IMG/VR virus record: IMGVR_UViG_3300025096_002119
Coordinates: 1-41,426 of that record
Strand: one strand, 5' to 3'
From: a virus
DNA: 41,426 nt
This document shows, one piece after another, positions 4,642 through 40,681 of the stretch. Each line of letters begins with the position of its first letter. The first letter of the stretch is position 1. The translations under genes were made by a program, and so were the position numbers. Below the pieces are notes generated by a model, which was given only the letters and a program-made list of their open reading frames with translations, made no database searches and was not told the DNA's origin.

Positions 4642-4932
4642 ATGACAACAAAACCTATGAAACCTCTAAAGAAACCTCAATCAGCACAAGTTCAAGTTGA
4701 TTTAAGAGATGCAGAAACAATTAAATGTAGTAGTTGTGATAACTACTTATTTATAACTTCATTCATATTAAAAAGATTATCAGCTATAGTATCACCGAGT
4801 GGTCAAGAAGCACTTATTCCAGTACAAGTTTATAGTTGTGGAAATTGTGGTCAAGTTGCTGAAGGATTTTTAGAAGGTAGTGGTTTAGAAGAAGAAAAAA
4901 ATACAGATAGTTTTCCAAGTTTGGATATATGA
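4642..4932 (+). CDS. Small zinc-ribbon protein
   Basis: 96 residues with two CxxC pairs, C29/C32 (CSSC) and C66/C69 (CGNC), separated by a predicted beta-rich stretch: a classic zinc-ribbon layout. The N-terminus is lysine/proline-rich (MTTKPMKPLKKPQ) and the C-terminus acidic, so both ends are probably disordered. RBS TAGGAG precedes the ATG. It lies between the protease and the gp62-like gene, overlapping the latter by ATGA. Zinc ribbons of this size often bind nucleic acid or polymerase partners, but nothing here shows which. Specific function unknown. Confidence 0.75.
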   Translation: MTTKPMKPLKKPQSAQVQVDLRDAETIKCSSCDNYLFITSFILKRLSAIVSPSGQEALIPVQVYSCGNCGQVAEGFLEGSGLEEEKNTDSFPSLDI

Positions 4933-5417
4933 GTGAAAAAAGAAAAAGTCTGTTCGACCACGTAAGACAAATAACAGCGGTTCAAAGTCCTAATTATTGG
5001 GAAGAGATATCAGACGAAGATAAGAAGTCTTGGTCTAATTATATGACACATAGATTTTTATCTATGAAAATGGAATGGGTTGAGTTAGTAAATGAATTAC
5101 AAAAATATAATTTACAACCAAAAGAATTATACAAATTATACACCAATGTATTACCGAAGAGTAAACAATGGTTAAAATATATTAAGAGGAGAAATCAAAT
5201 GGAACATCCAAATTGGTTAATCAATGTAGTAGCAAATCACGAACAAGTTAGTAAAAAAGAAGCATATGATATGATTGAAATGTACTATCTTAGCGAAGGT
5301 GGTATGTTAGAGTTAGGAGAACTTTGTCAGAAATGGGGAGTTGAACCTAAGAAGATAGAAGAGGCTGGTTTAAATGTAATTGGTAGTATAGGTGGATATA
5401 CGGCTGGAAACGGGTAA
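4929..5417 (+). CDS. Probable clamp-loader small subunit (T4 gp62-like)
   Basis: 162 residues, soluble and helical. The pattern YTNVLPKSKQWLKYIK followed by WLINVVANHEQVSKKEAYDMIEM resembles the gp62 stretch that in T4 runs MAAVPRGKRYGKWAK and then a helical segment ending NAINY. N-terminal SLFDHVRQIT is typical of gp62-like proteins of marine T4-like phages as I recall them. Together with gp44 it would form the clamp loader. It starts in an ATGA overlap. The gp44-gp62 pair is normally adjacent but here is split by the protease and zinc-ribbon genes. Assignment is by motif resemblance and context only; a profile search would settle it. Confidence 0.62.
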   Translation: MSEKRKSLFDHVRQITAVQSPNYWEEISDEDKKSWSNYMTHRFLSMKMEWVELVNELQKYNLQPKELYKLYTNVLPKSKQWLKYIKRRNQMEHPNWLINVVANHEQVSKKEAYDMIEMYYLSEGGMLELGELCQKWGVEPKKIEEAGLNVIGSIGGYTAGNG

Positions 5418-5422
5418 AATAG

Positions 5423-5809
5423 ATGAAAGTTATAAAAGATTCTAAGAATATGTCTAAAGTGGCTAAGGCTGAATCTGTTATAGAACAAATGGAACGAGAA
5501 TGGCCTGAAATGACCAATGAGTTTAAGAAGATACAAAAAGAACAATATGAATTGTTTTTACATAAACAACACGATTATGGTCCAGGTAATATTTCAGTCG
5601 GTACACAACTACAAACACCAGAAGAAGTAAAGTTATCACTTACAGGTTTATGGTTCAGAATGAATGATAAGATTCAGAGATTAAAGAATTTGTTAATGAG
5701 TGGACGTGATAACGCAGTAGAAGGTGAAACTGTAGAAGATGCTTATCTTGATGTATCTAACTATGGTATAATGGCAACTGTAGTTAGTCGTGGAAAATGG
5801 GGAAAATGA
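5423..5809 (+). CDS. DUF1599 / Nmad1-type protein (MazG-like helical domain)
   Basis: 128 residues. Visible family features: HKQHDYGPGNIS near 50, then GLWFRMNDKIQRLKNLL, then an acidic segment EDAYLDVSNYGIMA. The H-x2-DYG, R-x2-DK-x-RL and E/D-x3-D-x2-Y pattern fits DUF1599 (nucleotide modification associated domain 1), a helical family related to MazG-type nucleotide pyrophosphohydrolases and often found in phages. A role in nucleotide-pool or modified-base metabolism is known only by family association. It overlaps the next gene by ATGA. There is a 5-base gap to the gp62-like gene, so it is in the same operon. Confidence 0.7.
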   Translation: MKVIKDSKNMSKVAKAESVIEQMEREWPEMTNEFKKIQKEQYELFLHKQHDYGPGNISVGTQLQTPEEVKLSLTGLWFRMNDKIQRLKNLLMSGRDNAVEGETVEDAYLDVSNYGIMATVVSRGKWGK

Positions 5810-6669
5810 AAAGAGTAAGTTATAGTCAATATAATCAATGGGTTACTTGTCCATACAAATGGAAATTAAATTACATTGACGGTTTAGGTGAATATACTGA
5901 TAGTATTCATACTTTATTTGGTACAAGTATGCACGAAGTGTTACAGACATATCTTACTGTAATGTACAATGATACTATTAAAATGGCTGACGCTCTTCCG
6001 TTAGATGAAATGTTGTTACATAGAATGAAAAAAAATTACAATGAAATAATGGAAAAGAACGGTGGTGAAGTTTTTTGTGAACGAGAAGATATGGAAGAGT
6101 TTTATTCACACGGTCTAGCTATTCTTGACTGGTTCAAGAAAAAACGTAATATGTATTTCAGTAAGAAAGGTTATGAGTTAGTTGGCATTGAAGTTCCGAT
6201 AGATTATACAATGAATGCTGGTTTACAGTTTGTTGGATATATTGATGTACTTTTATATGATGTTAGAAGAGATAGATATAAAATCATAGATATTAAGACT
6301 TCTACGATGGGTTGGAATAAGTGGATGAAAGCAGATAAGAATAAAACAGACCAGTTATTATTATACAAATACTTTTATGGTGCACAACACGATATTCCAG
6401 TAGATAAAATTGATGTAGAATATTTTATTGTAAAACGTAAACTATATGAGAAAGTAGATTTTCCTCAAAGAAGAGTCCAAACATTTCAACCAGCAAGTGG
6501 TACACCAAGTATAAATAAACTTATGAATAACTTAAATCAATTTATAGATGAATCTTTTATTGACGGAGAATATAACTTAGAACATAATTATATTAAACAA
6601 CCATCTAAGAAAAATTGTAGGTTTTGTGAATTTAATCAAACAGAACATTGTGATGTAGGAGTCAAATAA
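5806..6669 (+). CDS. Cas4/RecB-like PD-(D/E)XK nuclease with Fe-S cysteines
   Basis: About 287 residues. Nuclease motifs in order: H43 in LFGTSMHEVLQ, acidic D in GYIDVLL, and D-x-K in IIDIKTS, preceded by the strand VGIEVPIDYT. One cysteine near the N-terminus (C15 in VTCPYKWK) plus three near the C-terminus (C271, C274, C282 in CRFCEFNQTEHC) match the iron-sulfur clasp of Cas4 and AddB nucleases. Likely a DNA end-processing exonuclease for recombination or replication. Start chosen at 5806 because of the ATGA overlap; an in-frame ATG at 5797 adds three residues. No Cas genes are nearby, so a CRISPR role is not implied. Confidence 0.85.
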   Translation: MKRVSYSQYNQWVTCPYKWKLNYIDGLGEYTDSIHTLFGTSMHEVLQTYLTVMYNDTIKMADALPLDEMLLHRMKKNYNEIMEKNGGEVFCEREDMEEFYSHGLAILDWFKKKRNMYFSKKGYELVGIEVPIDYTMNAGLQFVGYIDVLLYDVRRDRYKIIDIKTSTMGWNKWMKADKNKTDQLLLYKYFYGAQHDIPVDKIDVEYFIVKRKLYEKVDFPQRRVQTFQPASGTPSINKLMNNLNQFIDESFIDGEYNLEHNYIKQPSKKNCRFCEFNQTEHCDVGVK

Positions 6670-7528: not shown

Positions 7529-7720
7529 ATGGAATATAAATTAACATCTGTAAAGGTTTTAAGAGACCTATACAAGAAATTTAAAAGTTGTAATTTAGAT
7601 GATGAATTTACATTACAAAAATTAGTAAACCGTTCAATGGATTTATACATATTGGACGCTAAATTTAAAACTCAAATTAAAGAATGGAAAAACTTGAAAC
7701 CAAGTGGGAGTAGATTATGA
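7529..7720 (+). CDS. Small protein with ribbon-helix-helix-like pattern
   Basis: 63 residues from the ATG at 7529, chosen over an upstream in-frame ATG (7505) because ACGAGG lies 6 bases before it. One beta strand (YKLTSVKVL) is followed by two helices (LRDLYKKFKSC and TLQKLVNRSMDLYI), the order found in ribbon-helix-helix DNA-binding proteins. If so it would act as a dimeric transcription regulator. This is pattern-based only. Overlaps the next gene by ATGA. Confidence 0.5.
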   Translation: MEYKLTSVKVLRDLYKKFKSCNLDDEFTLQKLVNRSMDLYILDAKFKTQIKEWKNLKPSGSRL

Positions 7721-7953
7721 ATTTAAGGAATGACTTATTAAAAGCTAGTAAAAAACATTTTGAGGCTCATATTGAAAAACATAGAATTAACATTGAAAAT
7801 ATGTTAAACAATACAGTAGGTGTCGGAGACCACCCTGATGTGATGGACAGTATAGAAAAAGAACTTGAAGTTATGTCAGTTTATGCTGACAAGTTAGAAA
7901 TGTTAGATTATTTTGATATATCTTTAAATGATAAAAAATTATTAAACGGTTAG
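7717..7953 (+). CDS. Small conserved-type phage protein, helical
   Basis: 78 residues, probably two or three amphipathic helices with no membrane segment. The segment GVGDHPDVMDSIEKELE followed by YADKLEML resembles small hypothetical proteins common in marine T4-like phages (recollection, not a search). It starts in an ATGA overlap with the preceding gene and ends 8 bases before the first glycosyltransferase, marking the end of the replication region. Function unknown. Confidence 0.6.
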   Translation: MNLRNDLLKASKKHFEAHIEKHRINIENMLNNTVGVGDHPDVMDSIEKELEVMSVYADKLEMLDYFDISLNDKKLLNG

Positions 7954-7961
7954 AGGTTATA

Positions 7962-9377
7962 ATGGATAAGAAAAAGATTTTGCTACTATCAGATGATTTA
8001 AGAATGTCGTCTGGTATTGGTACAATGTCAAAGGAGTTTGTTTTAGGAACGTGTCATCATTATGATTGGGTACAAGTTGGTGGTGCTATAAAACATCCTG
8101 AACAAGGTAAAGTTGTAAATATGGATGAATCAATACAGAAAGAGACTGGTGTAAAAGATGCTAAATTAACAATATATCCAGTTGATGGTTATGGTAATAA
8201 TGAGCTACTTAGACAGATTGTGTCAATCGAAAAACCAGACGCAATTCTACACTACACGGACCCAAGATTTTGGCGTTGGTTATATGAAATGGAACACGAG
8301 ATTAGACAGGAGATGCCTATTTTTTATTATAATATTTGGGATGATTGGCCTGCACCTCATTATAATGAATGGTTTTATGAATCTTGTGATTTAATTATGA
8401 ATATATCTAAACAGACTGTCGCTATTGTGAAAGATGTTTGGAAAAAACATCCACCTGAAGATTGGCAAGTAACTTATCTACCACACGGTGTAAATTCTGA
8501 TTTCTATCCGATAACTGTATTTGATGATGAGTATGAAAAAGTACAAAATATGAGAAAACAATTAACAGATGATGATGTTGAATTTATATTTTTTTACAAC
8601 AATAGAAATATTAGAAGAAAGATGCCAGGTGATATTATACTCGCATTCAAAACATTTTGTGATACACTATCTGAAGAAGAGGCAAACAAATGTGCATTGT
8701 TAATGCACACTCAACCAAAAGATGAAAATGGTACAGATTTACCTGAAGTTGCAGCTGCATTATGTCCAGAACTTAAAGTATATTTTAGTGATAGGAAAGT
8801 TGAACCGAATCAATTAAATTGGTTATATAATATGGCAGATGTTACTATTAACATCGCATCAAACGAGGGATTCGGATTAGGTACTTGTGAATCTCTAATG
8901 GCAGGAACACCAATCATTGTTAATGTTACAGGCGGATTACAAGACCAGTGTGGATTTAAATTGAAAAAATATGCACCAGACCGTACAGGATTTACTGAAG
9001 CATTGTTAACTGCAGATGATTATTGTGAAATAAAATCGTTGCATGATGATAGGAAGTGGAAAGATAATGAAGATTTAACTTGGGGTGAATGGGTAAAACC
9101 TGTTTGGCCTTCAAATCGTGCTCTTGTGGGGTCTATACCAACACCATATATTTTCGATGATAGATGTAGATTTGATGACGTAGCTGTTGCAATGAAAGAA
9201 TGGTATGAAATGGATTCAGATGAACGTAAAGAATGTGGTATGAAGGGTAATCAATACGTTAATGATGAAAGAGTGATGATGACAGGTAAAATGATGTCTC
9301 AGAATTTTATAGACCAGATGGATAAGGGTTTCGAAATGTGGAAACCAAGAAAACGTTACAGTATTTTTAAAGCTTAG
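7962..9377 (+). CDS. GT-B glycosyltransferase (GT4-like)
   Basis: 471 residues. The N-terminal half starts KKILLLSDDLRMSSGIGTMSKEF, with the conserved G-I-G donor-side loop of retaining GT4 enzymes. The C-terminal half carries FFYNNRNIRRKMP and NEGFGLGTCESLMAGTPII (about 301-318), the E-x7-E motif that holds the nucleotide sugar. Length and domain order are normal for the family. It is the first gene of the glycan block and is followed 8 bases later by a second GT-B enzyme, so the pair may add consecutive sugars. Donor and acceptor are not predictable. It starts after AGAGG. Confidence 0.88.
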   Translation: MDKKKILLLSDDLRMSSGIGTMSKEFVLGTCHHYDWVQVGGAIKHPEQGKVVNMDESIQKETGVKDAKLTIYPVDGYGNNELLRQIVSIEKPDAILHYTDPRFWRWLYEMEHEIRQEMPIFYYNIWDDWPAPHYNEWFYESCDLIMNISKQTVAIVKDVWKKHPPEDWQVTYLPHGVNSDFYPITVFDDEYEKVQNMRKQLTDDDVEFIFFYNNRNIRRKMPGDIILAFKTFCDTLSEEEANKCALLMHTQPKDENGTDLPEVAAALCPELKVYFSDRKVEPNQLNWLYNMADVTINIASNEGFGLGTCESLMAGTPIIVNVTGGLQDQCGFKLKKYAPDRTGFTEALLTADDYCEIKSLHDDRKWKDNEDLTWGEWVKPVWPSNRALVGSIPTPYIFDDRCRFDDVAVAMKEWYEMDSDERKECGMKGNQYVNDERVMMTGKMMSQNFIDQMDKGFEMWKPRKRYSIFKA

Positions 9378-17135: not shown

Positions 17136-17782
17136 AATTTACATTCGGTATAATAACCTCAACACAAGTACCTGTTGAAGTTATACAATCAATTAATAGT
17201 TTAAATATTCCAGAGTATGAAATAATAGTGATAGGTGGTGGATTGAAACCTTGGTATGATAATGTAATTCATAAACCATTTGACGAGAATTCAGGTCCTT
17301 ATACATTAAAGAAAAATTTAATAACTAAATATGCAAAATATGAAAATATAGTTTACACTCACGATTATTTAATATTTGATAATAATTGGTATGAAGGATT
17401 TAAAAAGTTCGGTGATGATTGGGATATATGTATGAATGTTATACAAAATCAAGACGGAACACGATTTAGAGATTGGTGTGTGTGGGATGACCCCACTTTA
17501 TGTTATAATGTTGAAGGTTATAGTCATAGAGTTATTTTAGCACCATATGATTATAAAAAAATACATTATATGTATATTTCTGGTTCTTATTGGGTAGCTA
17601 AAAAGAGTGTTATGGAAGAAAATATGTTAAATGAAAATTTAGGTTGGGGTGAGGGAGAAGATGTTGAATGGTCAAAGAGAGTTCTTTCAAAGTATTCTTA
17701 TAAAATGAATACACATTCAATAACAAAATCTTTAAAATATAAAAAATTATCTGCAGAAATAATACCAGAGGTATTAATATGA
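17132..17782 (+). CDS. GT2-like glycosyltransferase (GT-A fold)
   Basis: 216 residues, GTG start in a GTGA overlap. MKFTFGIITSTQVPVEVIQSI is a GT2-like first strand and helix; IVYTHDYLIFDNNW (73-86) contains the position of the usual DxD, here H77-D78; NLGWGEGEDVEWSKRV (about 169-184) is the W-G-E-x-D-x-E element typical of galactosyltransferase-like GT-A enzymes. Likely active; specificity unknown. ATGA overlap with the HAD-nucleotidyltransferase fusion downstream. Confidence 0.7.
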   Translation: MKFTFGIITSTQVPVEVIQSINSLNIPEYEIIVIGGGLKPWYDNVIHKPFDENSGPYTLKKNLITKYAKYENIVYTHDYLIFDNNWYEGFKKFGDDWDICMNVIQNQDGTRFRDWCVWDDPTLCYNVEGYSHRVILAPYDYKKIHYMYISGSYWVAKKSVMEENMLNENLGWGEGEDVEWSKRVLSKYSYKMNTHSITKSLKYKKLSAEIIPEVLI

Positions 17783-19137
17783 TAAAACTTATTATATTTG
17801 ATTTAGATGGTGTATTAGTAGATGCACGAGAATTACATTACAACGCATTGAATAAAGCACTTGAATCTATTGGTAAAAAATATATTATTGAACGAGAAGA
17901 ACATTTATCTACTTATGATGGGTTATCCACTACTAAAAAATTAAATCTATTATCAGAGAATAAAAAATTACCTAAAGAACTTCACGATAGTGTTTGGAGA
18001 GTAAAACAAGAAAAGACTCGACAGATAATAGATGGATTTAGTATTGATAGTAGGATACAAGGTATATTAAGAAGTTTAAAAACAGAGGGGTATATGATTG
18101 CTTGTGCAACAAACTCTATAAGAGAAACTGCAAAATTACAATTAATTAGAAAAGGATTCTTTGAGTATATAGATTTTATGTATTCAAATCAAGATGTAAA
18201 AAACCCAAAACCTAACTCAGAAATATATATGAGATGTATGATACAGGCAGGAGTGAATCCAAATGAGACATTAATCGTAGAAGATTCACATATTGGTAGG
18301 AAAGGTGCAATTGCAAGTGGTGGTATTTTGTGTGGAGTAAAAAATACAACTGAAGTTACGTATGATAAAATTAAAAAATATATAAATGAGTCTAATAATG
18401 AAATAAAACCAAAATGGCAAGGAGGTAAGATGAATGTTTTAATTCCAATGGCAGGAGCCGGTTCAAGATTTGAACAAATGGGTTACACATTTCCAAAACC
18501 ATTAATCGAAGTTAATGGTAAACCAATGATACAGGTTGTAGTTGAAAATTTAAACATAGACGCTAAACATATATTTATAGTTCAGAAGAGTCATTATGAA
18601 AAATACAATTTGAAGTACTTACTGAATTTAATTACTAACAATAATTGTGAAATAGTACAAGTAGATGGTATAACAGAAGGTGCTGCTTGTACCACTTTAT
18701 TAGCTAAGAAATTTATAGATAATGATGAACCAATGGTTATGGCAAACTCAGACCAATTTTTAGAATGGGATTCAAATGAGTTTATGTATTCTATGGTTGC
18801 TGATGATGTAGATGGTGGTATAGTTTCTTTTGAAGCTACCCATCCAAAATGGTCATTTGCTAAATTAGGTGATGATGGATTCGTATCTGAAGTCGCAGAG
18901 AAAAAACCAATATCTAATATAGCAACAGCTGGGATATATTATTGGACACACGGTTCTAATTATGTTAAGTATGCTGAACAAATGATTGAAAAAGATATAC
19001 GAACTAATAATGAATTTTATGTTTGTCCAGTTTATAATGAAGCAATTCAAGATGGTAAAAAAGTAAAGGTATTTCAGATTGAAAAAATGTGGGGGTTGGG
19101 TACACCAGAAGATTTAGAAGTTTTTTTAAAGAGATAA
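17779..19137 (+). CDS. HAD phosphatase - sugar nucleotidyltransferase fusion
   Basis: 452 residues in two domains. Residues 1 to about 205 are a HAD hydrolase: D8-L-D10-G motif I, NPKPNSEIY with the motif III lysine, and VEDSHIGRKGA motif IV. Residues 218-452 are a nucleotidyltransferase: IPMAGAGSRF then FPKPLIEVNGKPM, and NSDQFLEWD for metal binding. It could remove a phosphate and activate the resulting sugar-1-phosphate, as in heptose or related pathways. The linker encodes AAGGAGGT (18419-18426) followed by an in-frame ATG at 18430, so a stand-alone nucleotidyltransferase may also be made. Confidence 0.88.
   Translation: MIKLIIFDLDGVLVDARELHYNALNKALESIGKKYIIEREEHLSTYDGLSTTKKLNLLSENKKLPKELHDSVWRVKQEKTRQIIDGFSIDSRIQGILRSLKTEGYMIACATNSIRETAKLQLIRKGFFEYIDFMYSNQDVKNPKPNSEIYMRCMIQAGVNPNETLIVEDSHIGRKGAIASGGILCGVKNTTEVTYDKIKKYINESNNEIKPKWQGGKMNVLIPMAGAGSRFEQMGYTFPKPLIEVNGKPMIQVVVENLNIDAKHIFIVQKSHYEKYNLKYLLNLITNNNCEIVQVDGITEGAACTTLLAKKFIDNDEPMVMANSDQFLEWDSNEFMYSMVADDVDGGIVSFEATHPKWSFAKLGDDGFVSEVAEKKPISNIATAGIYYWTHGSNYVKYAEQMIEKDIRTNNEFYVCPVYNEAIQDGKKVKVFQIEKMWGLGTPEDLEVFLKR
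18419..18432 (+). promoter_or_regulatory. Internal Shine-Dalgarno and start in fusion linker
   Basis: AAGGAGGT, a full Shine-Dalgarno, lies 3 bases before an in-frame ATG at 18430 that begins the nucleotidyltransferase domain exactly where free-standing relatives start (MNVLIPMAG). It is the strongest ribosome site I noticed in the window. It suggests internal initiation or a relic of a separate gene. Confidence 0.6.
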
Positions 19138-19138
19138 A

Positions 19139-19855
19139 ATGAAAATAAAATACAATCTATATAAAAATAAAAGATGTTTTATTGTTGGTACAAGTAAAAG
19201 TTTAGATAATATTGATGTATCATTACTAAAAGACGAAATAACTATTGGTATTAATTTAATACCATTAAAAGAAGATTTTGTACCAAATTATCTTTGTATT
19301 GCAGATACTACAGTAATGGAAAATAATTATGATATTATTTTTAATGAAAAGATGAAAGATGTTCAATATGTTATATGCAACGGTTGTCTCATACAAGGAA
19401 AAGGAAATTGTTATGATAAGTCAGGTTCAACTTGTAGAGGTATTAAGTTAGAAGAGAAATATAATGTTTATGAAGTAAAACATTGGGAAAAAAGTAAAAT
19501 ATTTAGTGACCATATAGATTCAAACAGAAAAAAGTTACTTAAAACAGATGAATATTATATTGATAAAGATTTTAAAACTATAACTTCTTACGGTGGTAGT
19601 ACTGTCGATAATTTAGCTATTCCATTAGCTGTATATCTTGGATTTAAAGAAATTTATTTATTAGGTTGTGATGGAGGTTGGAATCATTTTTATGACAGTA
19701 GTTATAAATCTGGTGTAAGAGAGTGGATAAATTACAATCACGTAAAAAAAGAGCTTGACAAGTATAGTGTAAATTTAGTAAATTGTGATGAAACAAATGC
19801 TTTTACTGAACTTAAATATAAAAAATTGGAGGAAGTTTTAAATGAAATGGAATGA
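19139..19855 (+). CDS. DUF115/MptE-like or GT42-like protein
   Basis: 238 residues. Key features: KNKRCFIVGTSKSLDNID (start strand plus glycine/serine loop), TIGINLIPL, YLCIADTTVM, and late YGGSTVDNLAIPLAVYLGFKEIYLLGCDGGWNHF. This strand-loop pattern is shared by the DUF115/MptE-like flagellar glycosylation proteins and GT42 sialyltransferase-like enzymes. Either would act in transferring an acidic sugar, which would fit the CMP-sugar synthetase at 21007. Overlaps the next gene by 14 bases. Confidence 0.55.
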   Translation: MKIKYNLYKNKRCFIVGTSKSLDNIDVSLLKDEITIGINLIPLKEDFVPNYLCIADTTVMENNYDIIFNEKMKDVQYVICNGCLIQGKGNCYDKSGSTCRGIKLEEKYNVYEVKHWEKSKIFSDHIDSNRKKLLKTDEYYIDKDFKTITSYGGSTVDNLAIPLAVYLGFKEIYLLGCDGGWNHFYDSSYKSGVREWINYNHVKKELDKYSVNLVNCDETNAFTELKYKKLEEVLNEME

Positions 19856-20558
19856 GATTTCAGACTTTAGATATATGGAAACTGCTAGAGGAATAGTAGG
19901 TGATATAAATAACAACATAACCGGTAGAGTGGCATTAAATGATATGTTGAGAGCTACTCACGTTTTGTATATTATAAAAAATTTACTTAGAGATAAATGT
20001 AAAACTGTATTAGAAATAGGTACATTATGGGGTGGAGCTTTACTAACTATGATGCAAAGTGAATATACGTCAAAATTTGTATCTGTAGATATGTTTGAAG
20101 GGTTTTATCCTGATTTATTAGGTGAAGGTAATAGTGACCAAGACCACGGAATAAATACCATAGAGTTAGTTACTGAAAACATAAATGAAAATAATCCATG
20201 GAATCACGAATTTGATTTAGTTAAAGGTTCATCACACGATAAAGTAGTTGTTGATTATATAAGAAAAAATTATCCAGTAGTTGACTTTATGTTTATAGAC
20301 GGTGACCATACGAAGAAAGGTGTACTACAAGATTGGAATGATTATTCAGATTTAATATCTACAGGTGGTATAGTAGTATTCGATGATTATTGGGTAGGAG
20401 ATTATGAAAGAGCAGCCTGGAAAAAAGAAGATGATGATGGTATTAAATGGATGGATGTAGTTGGAGCAGTAGATGAAATAACAGGTTCAAAAGAATTTTC
20501 TGAACAATGGAAAGTAGTTGGGTTGTTTGGAGATAAAAAAATAATTGAAAGAGTATAA
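19842..20558 (+). CDS. SAM-dependent methyltransferase (Methyltransf_24 / CmcI-like)
   Basis: 238 residues. Motif I VLEIGTLWGGALLTMM, motif II VSVDMFEGFYPD, DFMFIDGDHTKKGVLQDW and GGIVVFDDYW match class I methyltransferases of the cephalosporin hydroxylase/Methyltransf_24 group, common in sugar clusters. Likely methylates a sugar hydroxyl. Strong GGAGG ribosome site before the ATG. TAATG overlap with the next gene. Confidence 0.82.
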   Translation: MKWNEISDFRYMETARGIVGDINNNITGRVALNDMLRATHVLYIIKNLLRDKCKTVLEIGTLWGGALLTMMQSEYTSKFVSVDMFEGFYPDLLGEGNSDQDHGINTIELVTENINENNPWNHEFDLVKGSSHDKVVVDYIRKNYPVVDFMFIDGDHTKKGVLQDWNDYSDLISTGGIVVFDDYWVGDYERAAWKKEDDDGIKWMDVVGAVDEITGSKEFSEQWKVVGLFGDKKIIERV

Positions 20559-21010
20559 TGAAAAAAACTATTAAAATAAAAACAGATAAACTTTTTACAA
20601 TACTTACACCTGAAGTTGCTGCGTATGCAAAAGAGTGGGGTAAAAGTGGGTTAGTAAATATATACACAACTCATACAACAACTTCACTAAGAGTACTTGA
20701 AAATGAAATACTACATCACGCAGACATAAGATTCTGGTTAGATAAATATTTACCAAAACATAAACCTGAAAACAGACGTTATTTACACGATTTAATATCT
20801 TTGAGAAATGATGTACCTCAAGATGAGAGAATAAATGCTTATTCACATATGAGAACATTATTTTTTAATACTTCAGAGACAGTACCTATAGAAGAAGGTT
20901 GGTTGATGTTAGGTAAGTGGCAAGACATACACTTCATAGAGTTAGACCCAGGTGATAAAGTGTATCCTCTACAGGAAAGAAAAATTATTTGTACTTTTAT
21001 TGAAGAATGA
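20558..21010 (+). CDS. YjbQ/UPF0047-family protein
   Basis: 150 residues, close to the family length (about 130-140). Signature residues: IYTTHTTTSLRVLENE (36-50) with H39-T-T, YSHMRTLFFNTSETVPIEEG, and LMLGKWQDIHFIELDPG near the end, replacing the usual G-T-W-Q with G-K-W-Q. E. coli YjbQ shows thiamine-phosphate synthase activity in vitro, but the physiological role of the family is unclear. Location between a sugar methyltransferase and a CMP-sugar synthetase is odd for a thiamine enzyme. ATGA overlap downstream. Confidence 0.85.
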   Translation: MKKTIKIKTDKLFTILTPEVAAYAKEWGKSGLVNIYTTHTTTSLRVLENEILHHADIRFWLDKYLPKHKPENRRYLHDLISLRNDVPQDERINAYSHMRTLFFNTSETVPIEEGWLMLGKWQDIHFIELDPGDKVYPLQERKIICTFIEE

Positions 21011-21669
21011 AATTTTTTATAATAATAAAAGAAAAATCTGAACGATTACCTGATAAAAACTTTTTAAATTTAACTGGTATTCCGTTATATAAACATTTGT
21101 TAAATACATTATCAAGTGAAGATGTATATATAGATACTGATAGTGATATAATATTTAATGAATGTAAAACTTTAAGTAATGTAACTTGTTATAAAAGAGA
21201 TACAAAGCACGTAGAACTGGAGAAAAATATTGAATTTGCAGTAAGTCCTGTACTACTTATGATAGAGAACTTTTTAAACAAATATGTACAAGATGAAAAC
21301 GAAGTTATTATAACACCTCACGTTACATCACCCTATATAAGATTAGAAACAATGTTAGATGCAGCCAAGATGTTATCAGAATATAATACAGTATGTGCGT
21401 GTACAGAACATAAAGAATTTACATATTTTAAAGGAGAACCAGTGAACTTTAATCCTAATGTAGTTTCTAAAACACAAGATTTAGAACCTGTTGTAATGGG
21501 TAATGGTGCTTTCTTTATATTTACTAAAAAAGAGTTTATAAAAAATAAAAATAGAACAAGCAAGAATAACTATTTCTATCCCATAAAATTTCCTGAGAGT
21601 ATAGAGATAGACACAGCTGAAGATTTTAGAATGGCGAAGATGTATGAATTCATATATGAACTTAGTTGA
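21007..21669 (+). CDS. CMP-sugar synthetase (acylneuraminate/KDO cytidylyltransferase-like)
   Basis: 220 residues. Activates a 2-keto acid sugar with CTP. IIIKEKSERLPDKNFLNLTGIPLYKHLL is the N-terminal nucleotide loop; VYIDTDSDIIF, IITPHVTSPYIRLETMLDA and GNGAFFIFTKKEF follow the NeuA/KdsB order; ESIEIDTAEDFRMAK at the end is typical of NeuA/PseF proteins (ID-x3-D). No NeuB-type synthase is present; instead an aldolase overlaps its end by 26 bases, suggesting the keto acid may come from that enzyme. Confidence 0.85.
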   Translation: MKFFIIIKEKSERLPDKNFLNLTGIPLYKHLLNTLSSEDVYIDTDSDIIFNECKTLSNVTCYKRDTKHVELEKNIEFAVSPVLLMIENFLNKYVQDENEVIITPHVTSPYIRLETMLDAAKMLSEYNTVCACTEHKEFTYFKGEPVNFNPNVVSKTQDLEPVVMGNGAFFIFTKKEFIKNKNRTSKNNYFYPIKFPESIEIDTAEDFRMAKMYEFIYELS

Positions 21670-22636
21670 TGTTACGTTAAGAGACGGTGGATTTACTTGT
21701 GATTTTGATTGGCCTATGGACTTTGCACAGGAGTATTACAATCTAATGTGTGAATTAGGTGTTAGTTATATAGAAATGGGTTATTGGAAACAAACAGCGA
21801 AAAGTAAAAATAGATTTTTTAATTTAGATATAGATACAGTTAAAGAGGTTACAGGTGAACAAGGTAAAAATAATGTATCAGTAATGATTGACTATTCTTA
21901 TTGTAGTAAAGATTTAAACGACTATCCTACAGATAATCAAAATGAAATTAAAATGATTAGAATGACGTGTAGAAAAGATATGGTCAAAGAAGGATTTGAT
22001 TTTGCATTCAAACTAAAAACCCATACCGGTTTAGATGTAGCATTCAATCTTTTTAATACAACTAACTATACAGATTATGAACTACATTCTGCACTTGATA
22101 TTGTTCTTGCTTCTAATTTTGATATTATAGGGTTTGCAGATACACACGGACATTTAAATTTACATAAAGATATAAAAAGATACGAACACTTTTTTAAAAG
22201 AATAAAAGACTCTAGTAAGAAAACTTGTTTTCACCTACATAATCATACTGGTAAAGCTTATATGAATTATATTATGTGTCTTGAAAGTCCTTATGTAGAT
22301 TTTTGTGATACATCAGTAATGTCTCTTGGAAAGGGAGCTGGAAATCTAAAATTAGAAAATGTACTTGATGATGATAAGGCATTGAAATTGAATGAGTTTA
22401 TTCATAAGTATTACGAACCTTTATTCAAGAAAACAGTAAGTCCATATCTTATGGTAACAGGAAGATTCGGTATTACAGACCACTATGCAACACAAGCTAG
22501 AAAGTTAGATGTAGATATGTATGATTTTATTGAATTTTGTAGTACAGTAGAAGGTTTAGATAGAGATAACTTTGATAAAAATTTACTAATAGAATTAATG
22601 AAGAATAAATGGACACCTTATGAGGCGGCAATATGA
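21644..22636 (+). CDS. HMGL/DmpG-type aldolase
   Basis: 330 residues, TIM-barrel aldolase. LVDVTLRDGGF (7-17) gives the catalytic R13 and metal-binding D14; FADTHGHL (164-171) and FHLHNHTGKAYMN (196-208) supply H197/H199; SLGKGAGNLKLENVL follows as in 4-hydroxy-2-oxovalerate aldolase and related pyruvate-lyase family members. Probably condenses or cleaves a pyruvate-type unit, here perhaps building a 2-keto sugar acid for the CMP-sugar synthetase. Start could instead be the ATG at 21656. ATGA overlap with the SDR downstream. Confidence 0.85.
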   Translation: MNSYMNLVDVTLRDGGFTCDFDWPMDFAQEYYNLMCELGVSYIEMGYWKQTAKSKNRFFNLDIDTVKEVTGEQGKNNVSVMIDYSYCSKDLNDYPTDNQNEIKMIRMTCRKDMVKEGFDFAFKLKTHTGLDVAFNLFNTTNYTDYELHSALDIVLASNFDIIGFADTHGHLNLHKDIKRYEHFFKRIKDSSKKTCFHLHNHTGKAYMNYIMCLESPYVDFCDTSVMSLGKGAGNLKLENVLDDDKALKLNEFIHKYYEPLFKKTVSPYLMVTGRFGITDHYATQARKLDVDMYDFIEFCSTVEGLDRDNFDKNLLIELMKNKWTPYEAAI

Positions 22637-23343
22637 AGAATGTTTTAATCACAGGTACAAGTTCTGGTTTGGGTAAGGCGTTAGCTCATAGGTACGGTAT
22701 AACAGGTAGCTCAGTTTATGGTATAAGTAGAGACCAAAGTAAAGTAGATGGTTTTGTTCATCATATTGAATGTGATATTGAAAAAGTTTATGAAATATCA
22801 TTTAAACTTTCATCATTATTAAAAACTGTCAAAGATATTGATATTGTGTTTTTAAACGCAGGTGTTCTCGGTGAGATAGAATATTTAAATAAAGTAGGTA
22901 TAGATGAACTTGAAAGAGTTTTTACAATTAATACTTGGGCAAATAAAATGATTCTTGATTATCTTATAACAAATGATATAAAAGTTAAACAGGTAGTTGC
23001 AATATCATCAGGTGCATCGAAGCACACGTACACGGGCTGGGGAGCTTATTCTATTTCTAAGGCAGGACTTAATATGATGATGAAAGTTTATGCAGAAGAA
23101 AACCCTGAAACACATTTTCTATCACTTTCACCGGGACCAGTAAATACTTCTATGCAAGATTTTATAAATGAGAATATAGACGGAGATAAATTTGAATGGA
23201 AAAAGAAATTTACTGATATGAAAGAAAATAATACATTACCGCGTGCAGGGAGTGTTGCTAATGATATTTACGACACATTACCAAGACTACAGAAAGATTT
23301 TAAAAGTGGTAGTTTTGTAGATTTAAGAAAAATAAGGACCTAA
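22633..23343 (+). CDS. Short-chain dehydrogenase/reductase (SDR)
   Basis: 236 residues, classical SDR. NAD(P) loop TGTSSGLGKA (8-16), structural NAG at 75-77, catalytic S125/S126, Y139 and K143 (YSISK), then LSPGPVNTSM. Complete and of normal length. ATGA overlap with the aldolase implies they act in the same pathway, probably reducing or oxidising a sugar or keto-acid intermediate. Substrate unknown. Confidence 0.9.
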   Translation: MKNVLITGTSSGLGKALAHRYGITGSSVYGISRDQSKVDGFVHHIECDIEKVYEISFKLSSLLKTVKDIDIVFLNAGVLGEIEYLNKVGIDELERVFTINTWANKMILDYLITNDIKVKQVVAISSGASKHTYTGWGAYSISKAGLNMMMKVYAEENPETHFLSLSPGPVNTSMQDFINENIDGDKFEWKKKFTDMKENNTLPRAGSVANDIYDTLPRLQKDFKSGSFVDLRKIRT

Positions 23344-23347
23344 TAAA

Positions 23348-23929
23348 ATGAACGGATTATTATCAGGACTAATATTGTTCTCAAGTTTTGCTATGAGAAC
23401 ACCAAATGACGAGTTAATCAAGAAAGATGATTATGAATTATCTGTAGGTTTTAAATCTAAAACAATCTATTATAAAAGAGATTGGGAAAGAGAATTAGAT
23501 GTAAATTACATTGATGAAGAAGCTTGGTTTGTATTTGAACCAAGTGGATTACCATTGTATATGAAACCACAATATGTAAATAAAACTTCTCGTGATTTAA
23601 AATATGCTAAGTTGGATACACGATATAAAAAAGATTGGTTTAGTATTGGACATACGGCATTAATGTCAGAAGATAAAACTGAACAAGGAACTTCTCTTGG
23701 TATTTCTAATAAGAAAAAAATTAATGACCATTTCGATATGGTAACTAAAGTTGATGCTTATTATTTCAGAGATGAAGTGCATGGGTTAGATAGATTTGAT
23801 AGTGAAATTAATGTTTCACTAAATTGGAAACTAACCGAAAAAATAATACTGAATAATATATTAGATTACAATGATGTTAAAGGTAAACAATATTACAAGT
23901 TTAAGGTTGGAATTGAATATAATTTATGA
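23348..23929 (+). CDS. Secreted, possibly outer-membrane beta-strand protein
   Basis: 193 residues, unlike its neighbours. Residues 1-15 (MNGLLSGLILFSSFA) look like a signal peptide. The rest alternates polar and hydrophobic residues in strands (ELSVGFKSKTIYYKRDW, AKLDTRYKKDWFSIGHT, SEINVSLNWKLTEKII) and ends YYKFKVGIEYNL, like the last strand of outer-membrane barrels. RBS and ATGA overlap place it inside the glycan operon. It could alter the host envelope during infection. Barrel assignment is inference. Confidence 0.6.
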   Translation: MNGLLSGLILFSSFAMRTPNDELIKKDDYELSVGFKSKTIYYKRDWERELDVNYIDEEAWFVFEPSGLPLYMKPQYVNKTSRDLKYAKLDTRYKKDWFSIGHTALMSEDKTEQGTSLGISNKKKINDHFDMVTKVDAYYFRDEVHGLDRFDSEINVSLNWKLTEKIILNNILDYNDVKGKQYYKFKVGIEYNL

Positions 23930-24357
23930 TACTCATATCACATAGAGGTAATATTAATGGACCACAACCAATGTATGAAAATGGAGAGAAGTATTGTCAA
24001 GAAGCTATTGATGAGGGTTATCACGTAGAAATAGATGTTCATTGGTATGAAGGTATCTTTTGGACAGGACACGATAGACCACAATATAGAGTTAGAACTG
24101 ATTTTTTAAAGAAGAAAGAAGTTTGGTGTCATGCAAAAGATATTCAAGCTTTATATCAGCTTCGAGAAATAGAAGCTCATTGTTTTTTTCATCAAAATGA
24201 TAATGTAACTTTAACATCAGAGGGTTATCTTTGGACATACCCAACACATAAATTAACACCAAAATCAATATGTGTATTACCAGAATTACAAGTAGTAGAT
24301 TTAACAAGTTGTGCTGGTATTTGTAGTGATTTTATAAAGAGGTTAAAAGATGAATAA
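23926..24357 (+). CDS. Short GDPD/PLC-like phosphodiesterase domain
   Basis: 143 residues, about half the normal glycerophosphodiester phosphodiesterase length. Catalytic elements are visible: H6-R-G in LISHRGNINGP, EIDVHWYEG with the acidic metal ligands, and GHDRPQYR with the second histidine. Later strands VWCHAKD and CFFHQNDNVTL follow the barrel pattern but the final part is missing. It could be a minimal enzyme or a degenerate one. Overlaps the fucose synthase gene by 8 bases. Confidence 0.65.
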   Translation: MILISHRGNINGPQPMYENGEKYCQEAIDEGYHVEIDVHWYEGIFWTGHDRPQYRVRTDFLKKKEVWCHAKDIQALYQLREIEAHCFFHQNDNVTLTSEGYLWTYPTHKLTPKSICVLPELQVVDLTSCAGICSDFIKRLKDE

Positions 24358-34882: not shown

Positions 34883-35751
34883 TGAGAGCATTAGTAACAG
34901 GTGGAGCAGGATTTGTAGGTACGAATTTAATACTTAGATTATTAGAAGACGGACACGATGTTGTTTCGATAGACAACTATTCTACTGGATTTAAAAAAAA
35001 TGAACAAGAAGGTTGTAGGTATTGGGATTATGATTTATCATCAGAAATGAATCCGGTTTTAGAAATGAATGAGTATGATGTTATATTTCATATGGCAGCT
35101 TTGGCGAGAATACAACCGTCAATTAAATATCCACATAAAACAATACTTAATAATTTTGTTAGCTCATTAAATGTATTAGAGGCGGCTAGAAAAAATAATA
35201 CTCAAGTTATTTATGCTGGTTCGAGTACAAGACATCACGGTATTTTCAAAAGTCCATATGCATGGTCTAAATTATCAGGTGAACATTTGTGTGAATTATA
35301 TAGTAAAGTGTATGACTTAAATACTTCTATATGTAGATTTTACAATGTTTACGGAAAGTATCACATTGACTCAGGTGATTATGCAACAGTATTAGCAATA
35401 TTTGAGAGACAATGGTTGAACGGTGAATCAATAACAGTTACAAATGACGGTGAACAAAGAAGAGATTTTACTCATATAGATGATATTGTTGAGGCATTAG
35501 TTAGTATTGTAGGTAAAGATTTCAGAGCTGAAGATTTTGAGTTAGGTCGTGGTGAGAATTTTTCAATAAATGAAATAGCTGACTGTTTTGGCAAAGACTA
35601 CCCAAAAGAATATTTACCTGAGAGACCAGGTGAATATGATATGACATTAGCTGATTCATCAAAGGCAAAAGAATTATTAGATTGGAACCCAACAAAAAAC
35701 GTAAAGGAGTATATCGAAGAATGGATAAAATATCAGAGAAAAACGTTTTGA
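34882..35751 (+). CDS. NAD-dependent sugar epimerase/dehydratase (GalE-like)
   Basis: 289 residues, extended SDR. NAD loop GGAGFVGTN (7-15), DNYSTG, IFHMAALARIQPSI, active-site S114/S115, and Y126-x3-K130 (YAWSK), then FYNVYGKYH and GEQRRDFTHIDDI. Somewhat shorter than GalE (about 338). Probably epimerises or dehydrates a UDP-sugar; its neighbour is a UDP-sugar dehydrogenase-like gene. Sequence does not decide which sugar. Confidence 0.85.
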   Translation: MRALVTGGAGFVGTNLILRLLEDGHDVVSIDNYSTGFKKNEQEGCRYWDYDLSSEMNPVLEMNEYDVIFHMAALARIQPSIKYPHKTILNNFVSSLNVLEAARKNNTQVIYAGSSTRHHGIFKSPYAWSKLSGEHLCELYSKVYDLNTSICRFYNVYGKYHIDSGDYATVLAIFERQWLNGESITVTNDGEQRRDFTHIDDIVEALVSIVGKDFRAEDFELGRGENFSINEIADCFGKDYPKEYLPERPGEYDMTLADSSKAKELLDWNPTKNVKEYIEEWIKYQRKTF

Positions 35752-36635
35752 CCCGTGATAAATATCGGACCTCAATAGGAATAATTGGTAATGGATTCGT
35801 AGGTTCTGCAGTACGATTTGGTTTTTCACCTGGTACAGGTTGTGATGCTAAAGTTAGAGTTTACGACAAAGACCCATCAAAATCAGTAGATAATATTTAC
35901 GATACTGTAAATAAGTCAGACTTTATTTTCCTATCAGTACCAACACCATCTAATAAAGATGGTTCAATGAACTTGGATATTGTAAAACAAGCATTACAAG
36001 ATATTTCAGATGTTAATGAACGTGATGACAATGTAGTATTGTTAAGGTCAACGGTAACACCTGGTACAACATGCATGTTACAAGAACAATTTGATAATAT
36101 AAAAATAGTATTTAATCCAGAGTTTTTAACAGAACGAAGTGCTAAGTATGATTTCATAAATCAAGCAAGAGTTATACTTGGTGGTGAAGGACACGAGTTT
36201 GATGGAGTACACGAGACAGCTGAGTTATTTAGATGGAGATTCGGTGAATCAATGCCTATCATTGAAACAACGTGGGAAACAGCAGAGTTAATTAAATATA
36301 TGTGTAATTGTTTCTTTGCAACAAAAGTATCATTTATGAATGAAATGTATCAAATAGCAGAGAAATGTGAAGTTGATTGGGAGACAGCGTTAGATGGTTT
36401 TGTTAGAGACGGTAGAGTTGGTCATTCACATATGAATATACCAGGTCCAGATGGTAAGTTAGGGTTTGGTGGTAGTTGTTTTCCAAAAGATGTTCAAGCT
36501 ATAATAAATTTTGGTGAGACATTAGGTATAAATATGAGTACTGTAAAAGGTGTATGGGAAACAAATTTAGAAGTAAGACCTGAAAGAGATTGGGAAAACT
36601 TAAAAGGAAGAGCAGTAGTAGATGAAACCGATTAG
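35721..36635 (+). CDS. UDP-glucose/GDP-mannose dehydrogenase family, lacking C-terminal domain
   Basis: 304 residues from the ATG at 35721 (AAAGGAG 11 bases upstream; a TTG at 35682 is less likely). NAD loop GNGFVGSAV (23-31), LSVPTPSNKDGSMN, RSTVTPGTT, FNPEFLTERSA, K192 in AELIKYMCNCF, and catalytic C253 in GFGGSCFPKD are all present. Normal UGDs are about 390-450 residues; the C-terminal UDP-binding domain is absent, ending with a short tail. It may oxidise a sugar nucleotide without that domain, or need a partner. Overlaps upstream by 31 and downstream by 14 bases. Confidence 0.86.
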   Translation: MDKISEKNVLTRDKYRTSIGIIGNGFVGSAVRFGFSPGTGCDAKVRVYDKDPSKSVDNIYDTVNKSDFIFLSVPTPSNKDGSMNLDIVKQALQDISDVNERDDNVVLLRSTVTPGTTCMLQEQFDNIKIVFNPEFLTERSAKYDFINQARVILGGEGHEFDGVHETAELFRWRFGESMPIIETTWETAELIKYMCNCFFATKVSFMNEMYQIAEKCEVDWETALDGFVRDGRVGHSHMNIPGPDGKLGFGGSCFPKDVQAIINFGETLGINMSTVKGVWETNLEVRPERDWENLKGRAVVDETD

Positions 36636-39885: not shown

Positions 39886-40106
39886 ATGAAATAGTTTTAT
39901 ATGTAATAATATTTATACTCGGTGGTATGTTAGGTATTATGTCAATGGCATTAATATCTGCTAACAGATACGCTAATATGAATAGTGAGATACACGATTT
40001 AAGACATCAGAGAAAATTGTTAAAAGATGAACTAATAAGGAAATTACCAAGTAAACCAAAACCACGTAGATATAGGAAAAATGTTAAACAAGCAGGAAGT
40101 GCTTAA
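39882..40106 (+). CDS. Single-pass membrane protein (DUF3789-like)
   Basis: 74 residues. Membrane helix IVLYVIIFILGGMLGIMSMALIS (4-26) with the GGMLGIMSMAL pattern of small DUF3789-type phage membrane proteins, then a charged helix HDLRHQRKLLKDELIRK and a basic proline-rich tail. Coiled-coil-like cytoplasmic part. TAATG overlap with the HNH gene. Role unknown. Confidence 0.68.
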   Translation: MNEIVLYVIIFILGGMLGIMSMALISANRYANMNSEIHDLRHQRKLLKDELIRKLPSKPKPRRYRKNVKQAGSA

Positions 40107-40681
40107 TGTCTGATTTAGGAGATTTACACGACTACGAGAGTAAGTCTAAAAAGAATCCTTTTCGTAGTAGACCAATACCAAAGAGTAGAATAGAGTGGGC
40201 GATTAGAAGTACACTATCTATCAGAGCTGCAGCACAGTATCTTGGTGTTAGTTATAATACTTTTAAGAAGTACGCTAAGATGTATGACTTATTTGAACAG
40301 AATAAGAATCAAGCGGGTGTTGGCGTTACGAACAAAGGCAATACAGGTTGGGGCGTTAAGATACAGGATTTATTTGACGGAAAACACCCAAATTATCCAC
40401 ATTGGAAGTTACAAGAAAGAGTAGTAAGAGATGGCTACTTAAAACAAGAATGTAGTAACTGTGGATATGATGATTACAGAGAGAAAGATATGAGAGGCCC
40501 GTATATGATATGTTTCTTAGACGGCAATCATAAAAATCATACATTAGACAATTTACATCTATTATGTTATAATTGTTTCTTTATAGTTAAACCAACTGGT
40601 CGTATGTTAACGACACCAAAAAATGTTACTAATTTACGCAAGAAATTAGAAGAAGTATGGGATGAAAGTAATGATGAGTAA
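40106..40681 (+). CDS. HTH - HNH endonuclease-like protein
   Basis: 191 residues. Helix-turn-helix at 39-64 (SIRAAAQYLGVSYNTFKKYAKMYDLF), then an HNH zinc domain: C116/C119 (CSNC), H142 and H145 in FLDGNHKNHTLDNLHLLC, N149, C154/C157 (CYNC). All metal and catalytic residues appear intact. Similar proteins are common in T4-like phages; it could be a free-standing homing endonuclease or a DNA-metabolism nuclease. Confidence 0.82.
   Translation: MSDLGDLHDYESKSKKNPFRSRPIPKSRIEWAIRSTLSIRAAAQYLGVSYNTFKKYAKMYDLFEQNKNQAGVGVTNKGNTGWGVKIQDLFDGKHPNYPHWKLQERVVRDGYLKQECSNCGYDDYREKDMRGPYMICFLDGNHKNHTLDNLHLLCYNCFFIVKPTGRMLTTPKNVTNLRKKLEEVWDESNDE

Follow-up and report, generated by a model that had tools for sequence, protein, structure and literature searches.

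A phage gene block coupling a DmpG-type aldolase to a CMP-sugar synthetase: a probable module for a CMP-activated ulosonic acid

Ulosonic acids activated with cytidine monophosphate (CMP), such as sialic, pseudaminic and legionaminic acids and 3-deoxy-manno-octulosonic acid (Kdo), are major sugars of bacterial surfaces. The known substrates of the activating enzymes KdsB, NeuA and PseF are all 2-keto-3-deoxy sugar acids, and every route to a CMP-ulosonic acid known to us runs through a phosphoenolpyruvate (PEP)-dependent synthase of the NeuB or KdsA family. Here we analyse a block of four overlapping genes in the virus record IMGVR_UViG_3300025096_002119 (41,426 bases; "the window" denotes this whole stretch), in which a NeuA/PseF-like cytidylyltransferase is coupled to an aldolase of the HMGL/DmpG type. 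We put at roughly two in three the probability that the block is a module for a CMP-activated 3-deoxy-2-ulosonic acid, made by the aldolase in place of NeuB or KdsA and then transferred.

The four block genes lie on the plus strand, as do those at 17779-19137, 19139-19855, 19842-20558 and 23926-24357. The cytidylyltransferase, a proposed CMP-ulosonate synthetase (21007-21669; CTP_transf_3, E = 2.2e-11), overlaps the HMGL/DmpG-type aldolase gene (21644-22636; HMGL-like, E = 7.8e-14) by 26 bases, and this in turn overlaps the gene for a short-chain dehydrogenase/reductase (SDR; 22633-23343; adh_short, E = 3e-23) by 4 bases. A sequence-only reading of the window had placed three overlapping genes at 21007-23343; these coordinates are right, and each gene scores above its curated Pfam cut-off. 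That reading's three-gene cassette stands as regards cytidylyltransferase, aldolase and SDR but was drawn too small, the unit comprising at least four genes, as a YjbQ/UPF0047 gene (20558-21010; PF01894, E = 3.4e-23), which overlaps the cytidylyltransferase by 4 bases, belongs to it as the first gene of the block. Three other IMG/VR contigs, two of them near-identical, retain genes for a DUF115 protein, YjbQ, cytidylyltransferase, aldolase and SDR at 64-93% identity, with different flanking genes.

A broad aldolase alignment scan yielded 75 phage loci, which were searched with domain-level profile models, since fusions had made an iterative hidden Markov model run merge the aldolase and synthetase profiles. 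Besides the window, nine distinct phage loci (L002, L003, L013/L014, L015/L017, L016, L018, L019, L020 and L021/L022) have the order YjbQ-cytidylyltransferase-aldolase-SDR, at aldolase identities as low as 34%, with YjbQ upstream of the cytidylyltransferase every time. The sequence-only reading had proposed looking for its three-gene order in bacterial O-antigen loci; that order, preceded by YjbQ, occurs in cellular contigs of SAR116 (L095, L097, L099, L100), Prochlorococcus (L094), Pelagibacteraceae (L088) and another member of the Pseudomonadota (L098). A Flammeovirgaceae metagenome-assembled genome (MAG; L089) carries the block without a detected SDR, and other Gammaproteobacteria and Prochlorococcus have the synthetase-aldolase pair only. 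Among isolated phages no close relative was found, one search giving a single partial match at 24.7% and another none. Pairwise ratios of nonsynonymous to synonymous substitution (dN/dS) between the window and its relatives are approximately 0.06-0.30 for the block genes, and 0.06-0.07 for YjbQ, so the genes are maintained; taken with the order kept down to 34% aldolase identity, these values argue that the block is not a chance arrangement. YjbQ and the SDR are mostly present or absent together across loci, which suggests that they form one sub-pathway. Close relatives of the phage modules also occur in Pacearchaeota and Lokiarchaeota MAG bins (L085, L087), where they are probably phage or bacterial contamination.

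The association between aldolase and synthetase extends well beyond the four-gene block. When 80 phage aldolase domains were grouped into 47 clusters at 80% identity, the two domains were fused in 20 clusters, 18 with the aldolase first and two with the synthetase first, and Pfam confirms both fusion orders (L041, whose fused protein lies at 4856-6538, and L027, respectively). The remaining 27 comprise 16 in which the partners are immediate neighbours, one in which they are near each other, and ten without a partner in the fetched DNA. Where both were separate genes inside the fetched locus, they were adjacent in 16 of 16 representatives, against 2.5 expected at random. The aldolase-first fusions, which are the largest fused group, carry a KdsB-like synthetase domain, and L041 scores above the cut-off for two 3-deoxy-manno-octulosonate cytidylyltransferase subfamily models; PseF/NeuA-like domains are found in the four-gene block and in the synthetase-first fusion L027. 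The pairing therefore spans two enzyme types, both acting on 2-keto-3-deoxy acids. These comparisons support placing the aldolase and the CMP-sugar synthetase in one putative pathway. In the open-licence literature no account was found of a cytidylyltransferase joined to an HMGL aldolase, either as a gene pair or as a fusion; this is weak evidence of novelty.

The window cytidylyltransferase scores 44.4 bits against CTP_transf_3 (cut-off 22.6), and its nearest solved structures are the CMP-Neu5Ac synthetases 1qwj and 1eyr. Residues K17-N18, H105-V-T-S-P109 and E200/D202 (the KN, HVTSP and EID motifs), whose equivalence was read off alignments to solved structures, are invariant in 10 relatives. 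It scores below the cut-offs of the NCBIfam equivalog models for PseF (39.2 bits against 205.7) and kdsB (19.8 against 155.2).

The sequence-only reading had noted that NeuB is missing beside the cassette, and this holds for the whole 41-kb record: neither the NeuB profile (PF03102) nor the DAHP/KdsA profile (PF00793) finds a match, although the record is a fragment and is silent on the host. An ordinary nonulosonic pathway could thus be envisaged, in which a NeuB encoded at another place in the phage, or by the host, supplies an acid of the sialic, pseudaminic or legionaminic type, the window synthetase activates it, and the aldolase is unrelated or has a tailoring role. The PseF/NeuA-like character of the synthetase and the unseen host genes are compatible with such a pathway, as is the NeuB profile match in 7 of 47 related phage records, of which six are clear, two of these being near-duplicates. 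The seventh, in G037, falls where a DAHP/KdsA-type profile matches far more strongly and was not counted, so that NeuB is absent from 41 of the 47 aldolase-bearing records. We nevertheless consider this alternative unlikely. In 36 of the 47 clusters the aldolase is either fused to the synthetase or next to it, and in the NeuB-bearing phage loci that could be read NeuB has a cytidylyltransferase of its own, distinct from the partner of the aldolase: NeuB and this gene abut in L032 and lie within about 0.8 kb of each other in L079 and within about 2 kb in L013. Several module-bearing cellular genomes, possibly incomplete, show no NeuB. KdsA is usually present in cellular genomes that carry the module, and Prochlorococcus L094 has KdsA and a KdsB-like gene together directly upstream of a complete four-gene block. 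The module would thus add a second CMP-sugar and not replace Kdo. To regard a NeuB or KdsA homologue elsewhere in the genome as refuting the aldolase route, as the sequence-only reading did, is too strict, because such enzymes can have their own partners.

The aldolase itself, whose true start may lie at 21656 judging from its relatives, is a proposed pyruvate aldolase giving a 2-keto-3-deoxy acid. A profile of its family matches the putative aldolase 3dxi at E = 5e-68 and 4-hydroxy-2-oxovalerate aldolases at 4e-36; acetyl-CoA-dependent synthases follow at 5e-20 or weaker, with homocitrate, isopropylmalate and citramalate synthases ranking well behind 3dxi and the oxovalerate aldolases. The modelled fold is closest to 3dxi (Z = 25.8) and to DmpG (1nvm; Z = 23.1). 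Counting from 21656, residues R9, D10, H193, H195 and N230 are invariant among relatives, and alignment shows in the window enzyme equivalents of DmpG Arg17 and of the metal ligands Asp18, His200 and His202, again invariant in relatives. At the position of the DmpG base, His21, the window, L002, L003, L085 and L086 have Phe; most of the rest of the clade has His there, and the KdsB-fused group Tyr. Against the TIGR03217 equivalog (DmpG/MhpE 4-hydroxy-2-oxovalerate aldolase) the enzyme scores 33.5 bits, far below the cut-off of 286. Because the base is replaced in the window's own branch, we do not call the enzyme a DmpG-family member; in its mode of action it is probably similar to a pyruvate aldolase. 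The suggestion of the sequence-only reading that the aldolase supplies the 2-keto acid thus gains comparative support from this likeness in profile and fold, and from the 20 fused and 16 adjacent clusters. In a tree, the aldolases of the block and of its cellular relatives group together with full support, in a single clade of 26 that sits on a long branch. Aldolases of this kind are also found in 101 of 292 cyanobacterial genomes (E <= 1e-25), several with a separate cytidylyltransferase gene adjoining.

Membership of the same superfamily, the Phe at the base position and the closeness of Claisen-type synthases in fold score (Z about 22) could instead point to a synthase resembling those for homocitrate or isopropylmalate, whose CMP-activated product would be a branched, non-sugar acid. 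This seems quite improbable, given that the profile's E-value for pyruvate aldolases is better by some 16 orders of magnitude and that the fused partner in the largest group is KdsB, an enzyme class known to act on 2-keto-3-deoxy sugar acids. Very improbable, too, is that the aldolase runs in the lyase direction, breaking down a host ulosonic acid as NanA does, with the synthetase competing for that pool or salvaging from it. Aldolases can run either way and degradation of host glycans is common among phages, but fusion to an activating enzyme favours forward passage of the product, and the neighbouring genes are biosynthetic (GDP-mannose dehydratase, GDP-fucose synthase-like enzyme, aminotransferases and transferases).

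For the transfer step, the DUF115/GT42-like protein encoded at 19139-19855 (PF01973, the MptE/Maf_flag10 type; E = 1e-10, 42.1 bits against 34.6) had been suggested by the sequence-only reading, and it remains a good candidate CMP-sugar glycosyltransferase. No solved structure was matched by sequence. Its AlphaFold model (predicted local distance difference test score, pLDDT, 72.5) is nearest the Maf glycosyltransferase 5mu5 (Z = 12.7 over 190 residues, 3.7 Å), followed by MptE and then by the GT42 sialyltransferases Cst-I and Cst-II (Z = 9.8). In Maf, PF01973 forms the central, Cst-II-like domain, and Maf enzymes can use CMP-Neu5Ac as well as CMP-Kdo (PMC11339370). His183, a possible counterpart of the Cst-II base, is invariant in four relatives. 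A gene of this type is kept beside the block in L002, L003 and L013, and in several unrelated phages a PF01973-type protein is encoded close to the aldolase; PF01973 matches, mostly weak, occur in 25 of the 47 aldolase-bearing phage records. It is very unlikely that the 19139 protein is instead an MptE- or thiamine pyrophosphokinase-like enzyme making, with YjbQ, a pterin- or thiamine-related metabolite, for although the pyrophosphokinase MptE (HPPK; Z = 10.8) and thiamine pyrophosphokinase (Z = 9.2) both appear in the fold list and the YjbQ model bears the name secondary thiamine-phosphate synthase, Maf is the best fold match, GT42 and GT29 sialyltransferases fill the list, and the genomic setting is one of glycan synthesis.

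Certain aldolases of about 530 residues (L011, 7986-9596; L104-L106; L133) carry at the C-terminus an additional domain that closes with an AGFDGY motif, and they adjoin KdsB-like or NeuA-like genes. The idea that the C-terminal domain of such proteins in Leisingera and cyanobacteria is a DUF115 transferase was not established, with no BLASTP match and 13.8% from hhalign; PF01973 was matched in 3 of 11 of these aldolases, at a best E-value of 0.0047.

The ulosonic acid module that we favour would work as follows. The metal-dependent DmpG-type aldolase would join pyruvate to a sugar aldehyde to give a 2-keto-3-deoxy sugar acid, an aldol step standing in for PEP-dependent NeuB or KdsA, and the NeuA/PseF-like enzyme would move CMP from CTP onto this acid. 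The Maf/GT42-type 19139 protein would then pass the sugar to a glycan or protein, while the SDR and YjbQ would prepare the aldehyde or modify the sugar. Of this scheme, the gene block and its conservation, the fusions, the folds and the conserved metal-site residues are what the sequences show, whereas the pyruvate donor, the ulosonic acid product and the order of steps are what we infer. For the phage, the purpose may be to alter host surface glycans or to decorate its own particles. Several points weigh against the scheme. The record is fragmentary and shows nothing of the host's genes; the base His of DmpG is Phe in the window; a very long branch separates the aldolase clade from other aldolases, so that the chemistry may have shifted; and the fold of the 19139 protein also fits a pyrophosphokinase, with PF01973-type proteins undetected in many aldolase-bearing records.

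The SDR, which is benzil-reductase/YIR035C-like, is a classical member of its family with the TGxxxGxG and NAG motifs, Ser, Tyr139 and Lys143 conserved; its nearest solved structure is 3kzv. A Methyltransf_24/CmcI-like methyltransferase (19842-20558; Pfam E = 2.1e-10), lying between transferase and block in the window and L002 and elsewhere in L003, is an optional decoration gene. Upstream, a 452-residue protein (17779-19137) fuses a beta-PGM-like HAD phosphatase (HAD_2, E = 3.6e-28) to a sugar nucleotidyltransferase (NTP_transferase, E = 2.8e-12); a 75% relative precedes the block in L003, and the protein, though weakly linked, is a possible phosphatase for the module. L002 has a different fusion inside its island (7666-8724), a nucleotidyltransferase with a HAD-like end. 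Loci of SAR116 and Pelagibacter likewise have HAD phosphatase genes next to the module, as does the Leisingera aldolase-KdsB locus, which hints at a phosphorylated intermediate. After the block, a small conserved protein without a Pfam match (23926-24357; pattern HRG...EN...E-D...GHD) resembles glycerophosphodiesterases by eye only; counterparts conserved at 72-77% follow the block in L002 and L003, and another is present in L030. Between it and the SDR lies a gene for a 193-residue protein (23348-23929), possibly with a signal peptide, whose alternating aromatic strands recall a small outer-membrane beta-barrel; it has no Pfam match and no counterpart at this position in L003.

The record comes from a T4-like phage. 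It begins with homologues of the T4-type gp43 DNA polymerase, gp45 sliding clamp and gp44 clamp loader and a gp46/47-region exonuclease, and the best match of the polymerase among known phages is to Microcystis phage Mel-JY01, at 47%. The next 30 kb or so is taken up by glycan genes, including glycosyltransferases, DegT aminotransferases, GDP-mannose dehydratase, methyltransferases, a GDP-fucose synthase-like enzyme and a UDP-glucose dehydrogenase-like gene. A UDP-glucose/GDP-mannose dehydrogenase-like gene at 35682-36635 starts with TTG, overlaps the preceding epimerase gene and lacks the C-terminal domain among its Pfam matches, so it may be truncated. At 40106-40681 a weak, sub-cut-off NUMOD1 match (E = 0.0018) may mark the remnant of a homing endonuclease.

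Whether the block represents something wider, namely a widespread and so far undescribed PEP-independent route to CMP-ulosonic acids, in which a DmpG-type aldolase, either fused to a KdsB- or NeuA-type synthetase or coupled with one, gives marine phages and bacteria a new acidic surface sugar with which phages alter host or virion glycans, is in our judgement evenly balanced. If so, it would account for many genes annotated "aldolase catalytic domain-containing protein" in polysaccharide loci, and would point to sugars that chemists have probably overlooked in marine picoplankton and their phages. The recurrent aldolase-synthetase fusion is a ready object for assaying such a route, and YjbQ/UPF0047, a family with a solved structure and an obscure function, gains a defined pathway setting.

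The closest described systems each share part of this arrangement. The 19139 protein has the PF01973 domain and fold of the Maf flagellin glycosyltransferase and of the GT42 enzymes Cst-I and Cst-II, but stands alone at 238 residues with about 14% identity. By both sequence and fold, the closest solved relative of the aldolase is the N-terminal domain of BVU_2661 (3dxi), with which it shares the RDGG motif, although a very long branch parts the window clade from 3dxi-like RDGGY sequences (3dxi itself lies outside the tree). The 4-hydroxy-2-oxovalerate aldolases DmpG/BphI (1nvm) have the same TIM-barrel fold, Arg and Asp/His/His metal ligands; the module differs in that its partner is a CMP-sugar synthetase and no acetaldehyde dehydrogenase partner is seen. 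The Kdo (KdsD-KdsA-KdsC-KdsB) and nonulosonic (NeuB-NeuA, PseI-PseF) pathways likewise form a 2-keto-3-deoxy sugar acid and then attach CMP with a CTP_transf_3 enzyme, and a HAD phosphatase is often found near the module, as KdsC would be. Where those pathways join carbon with PEP-dependent NeuB or KdsA, the module has an HMGL/DmpG-type aldolase, often fused to its synthetase and linked with YjbQ and an SDR.

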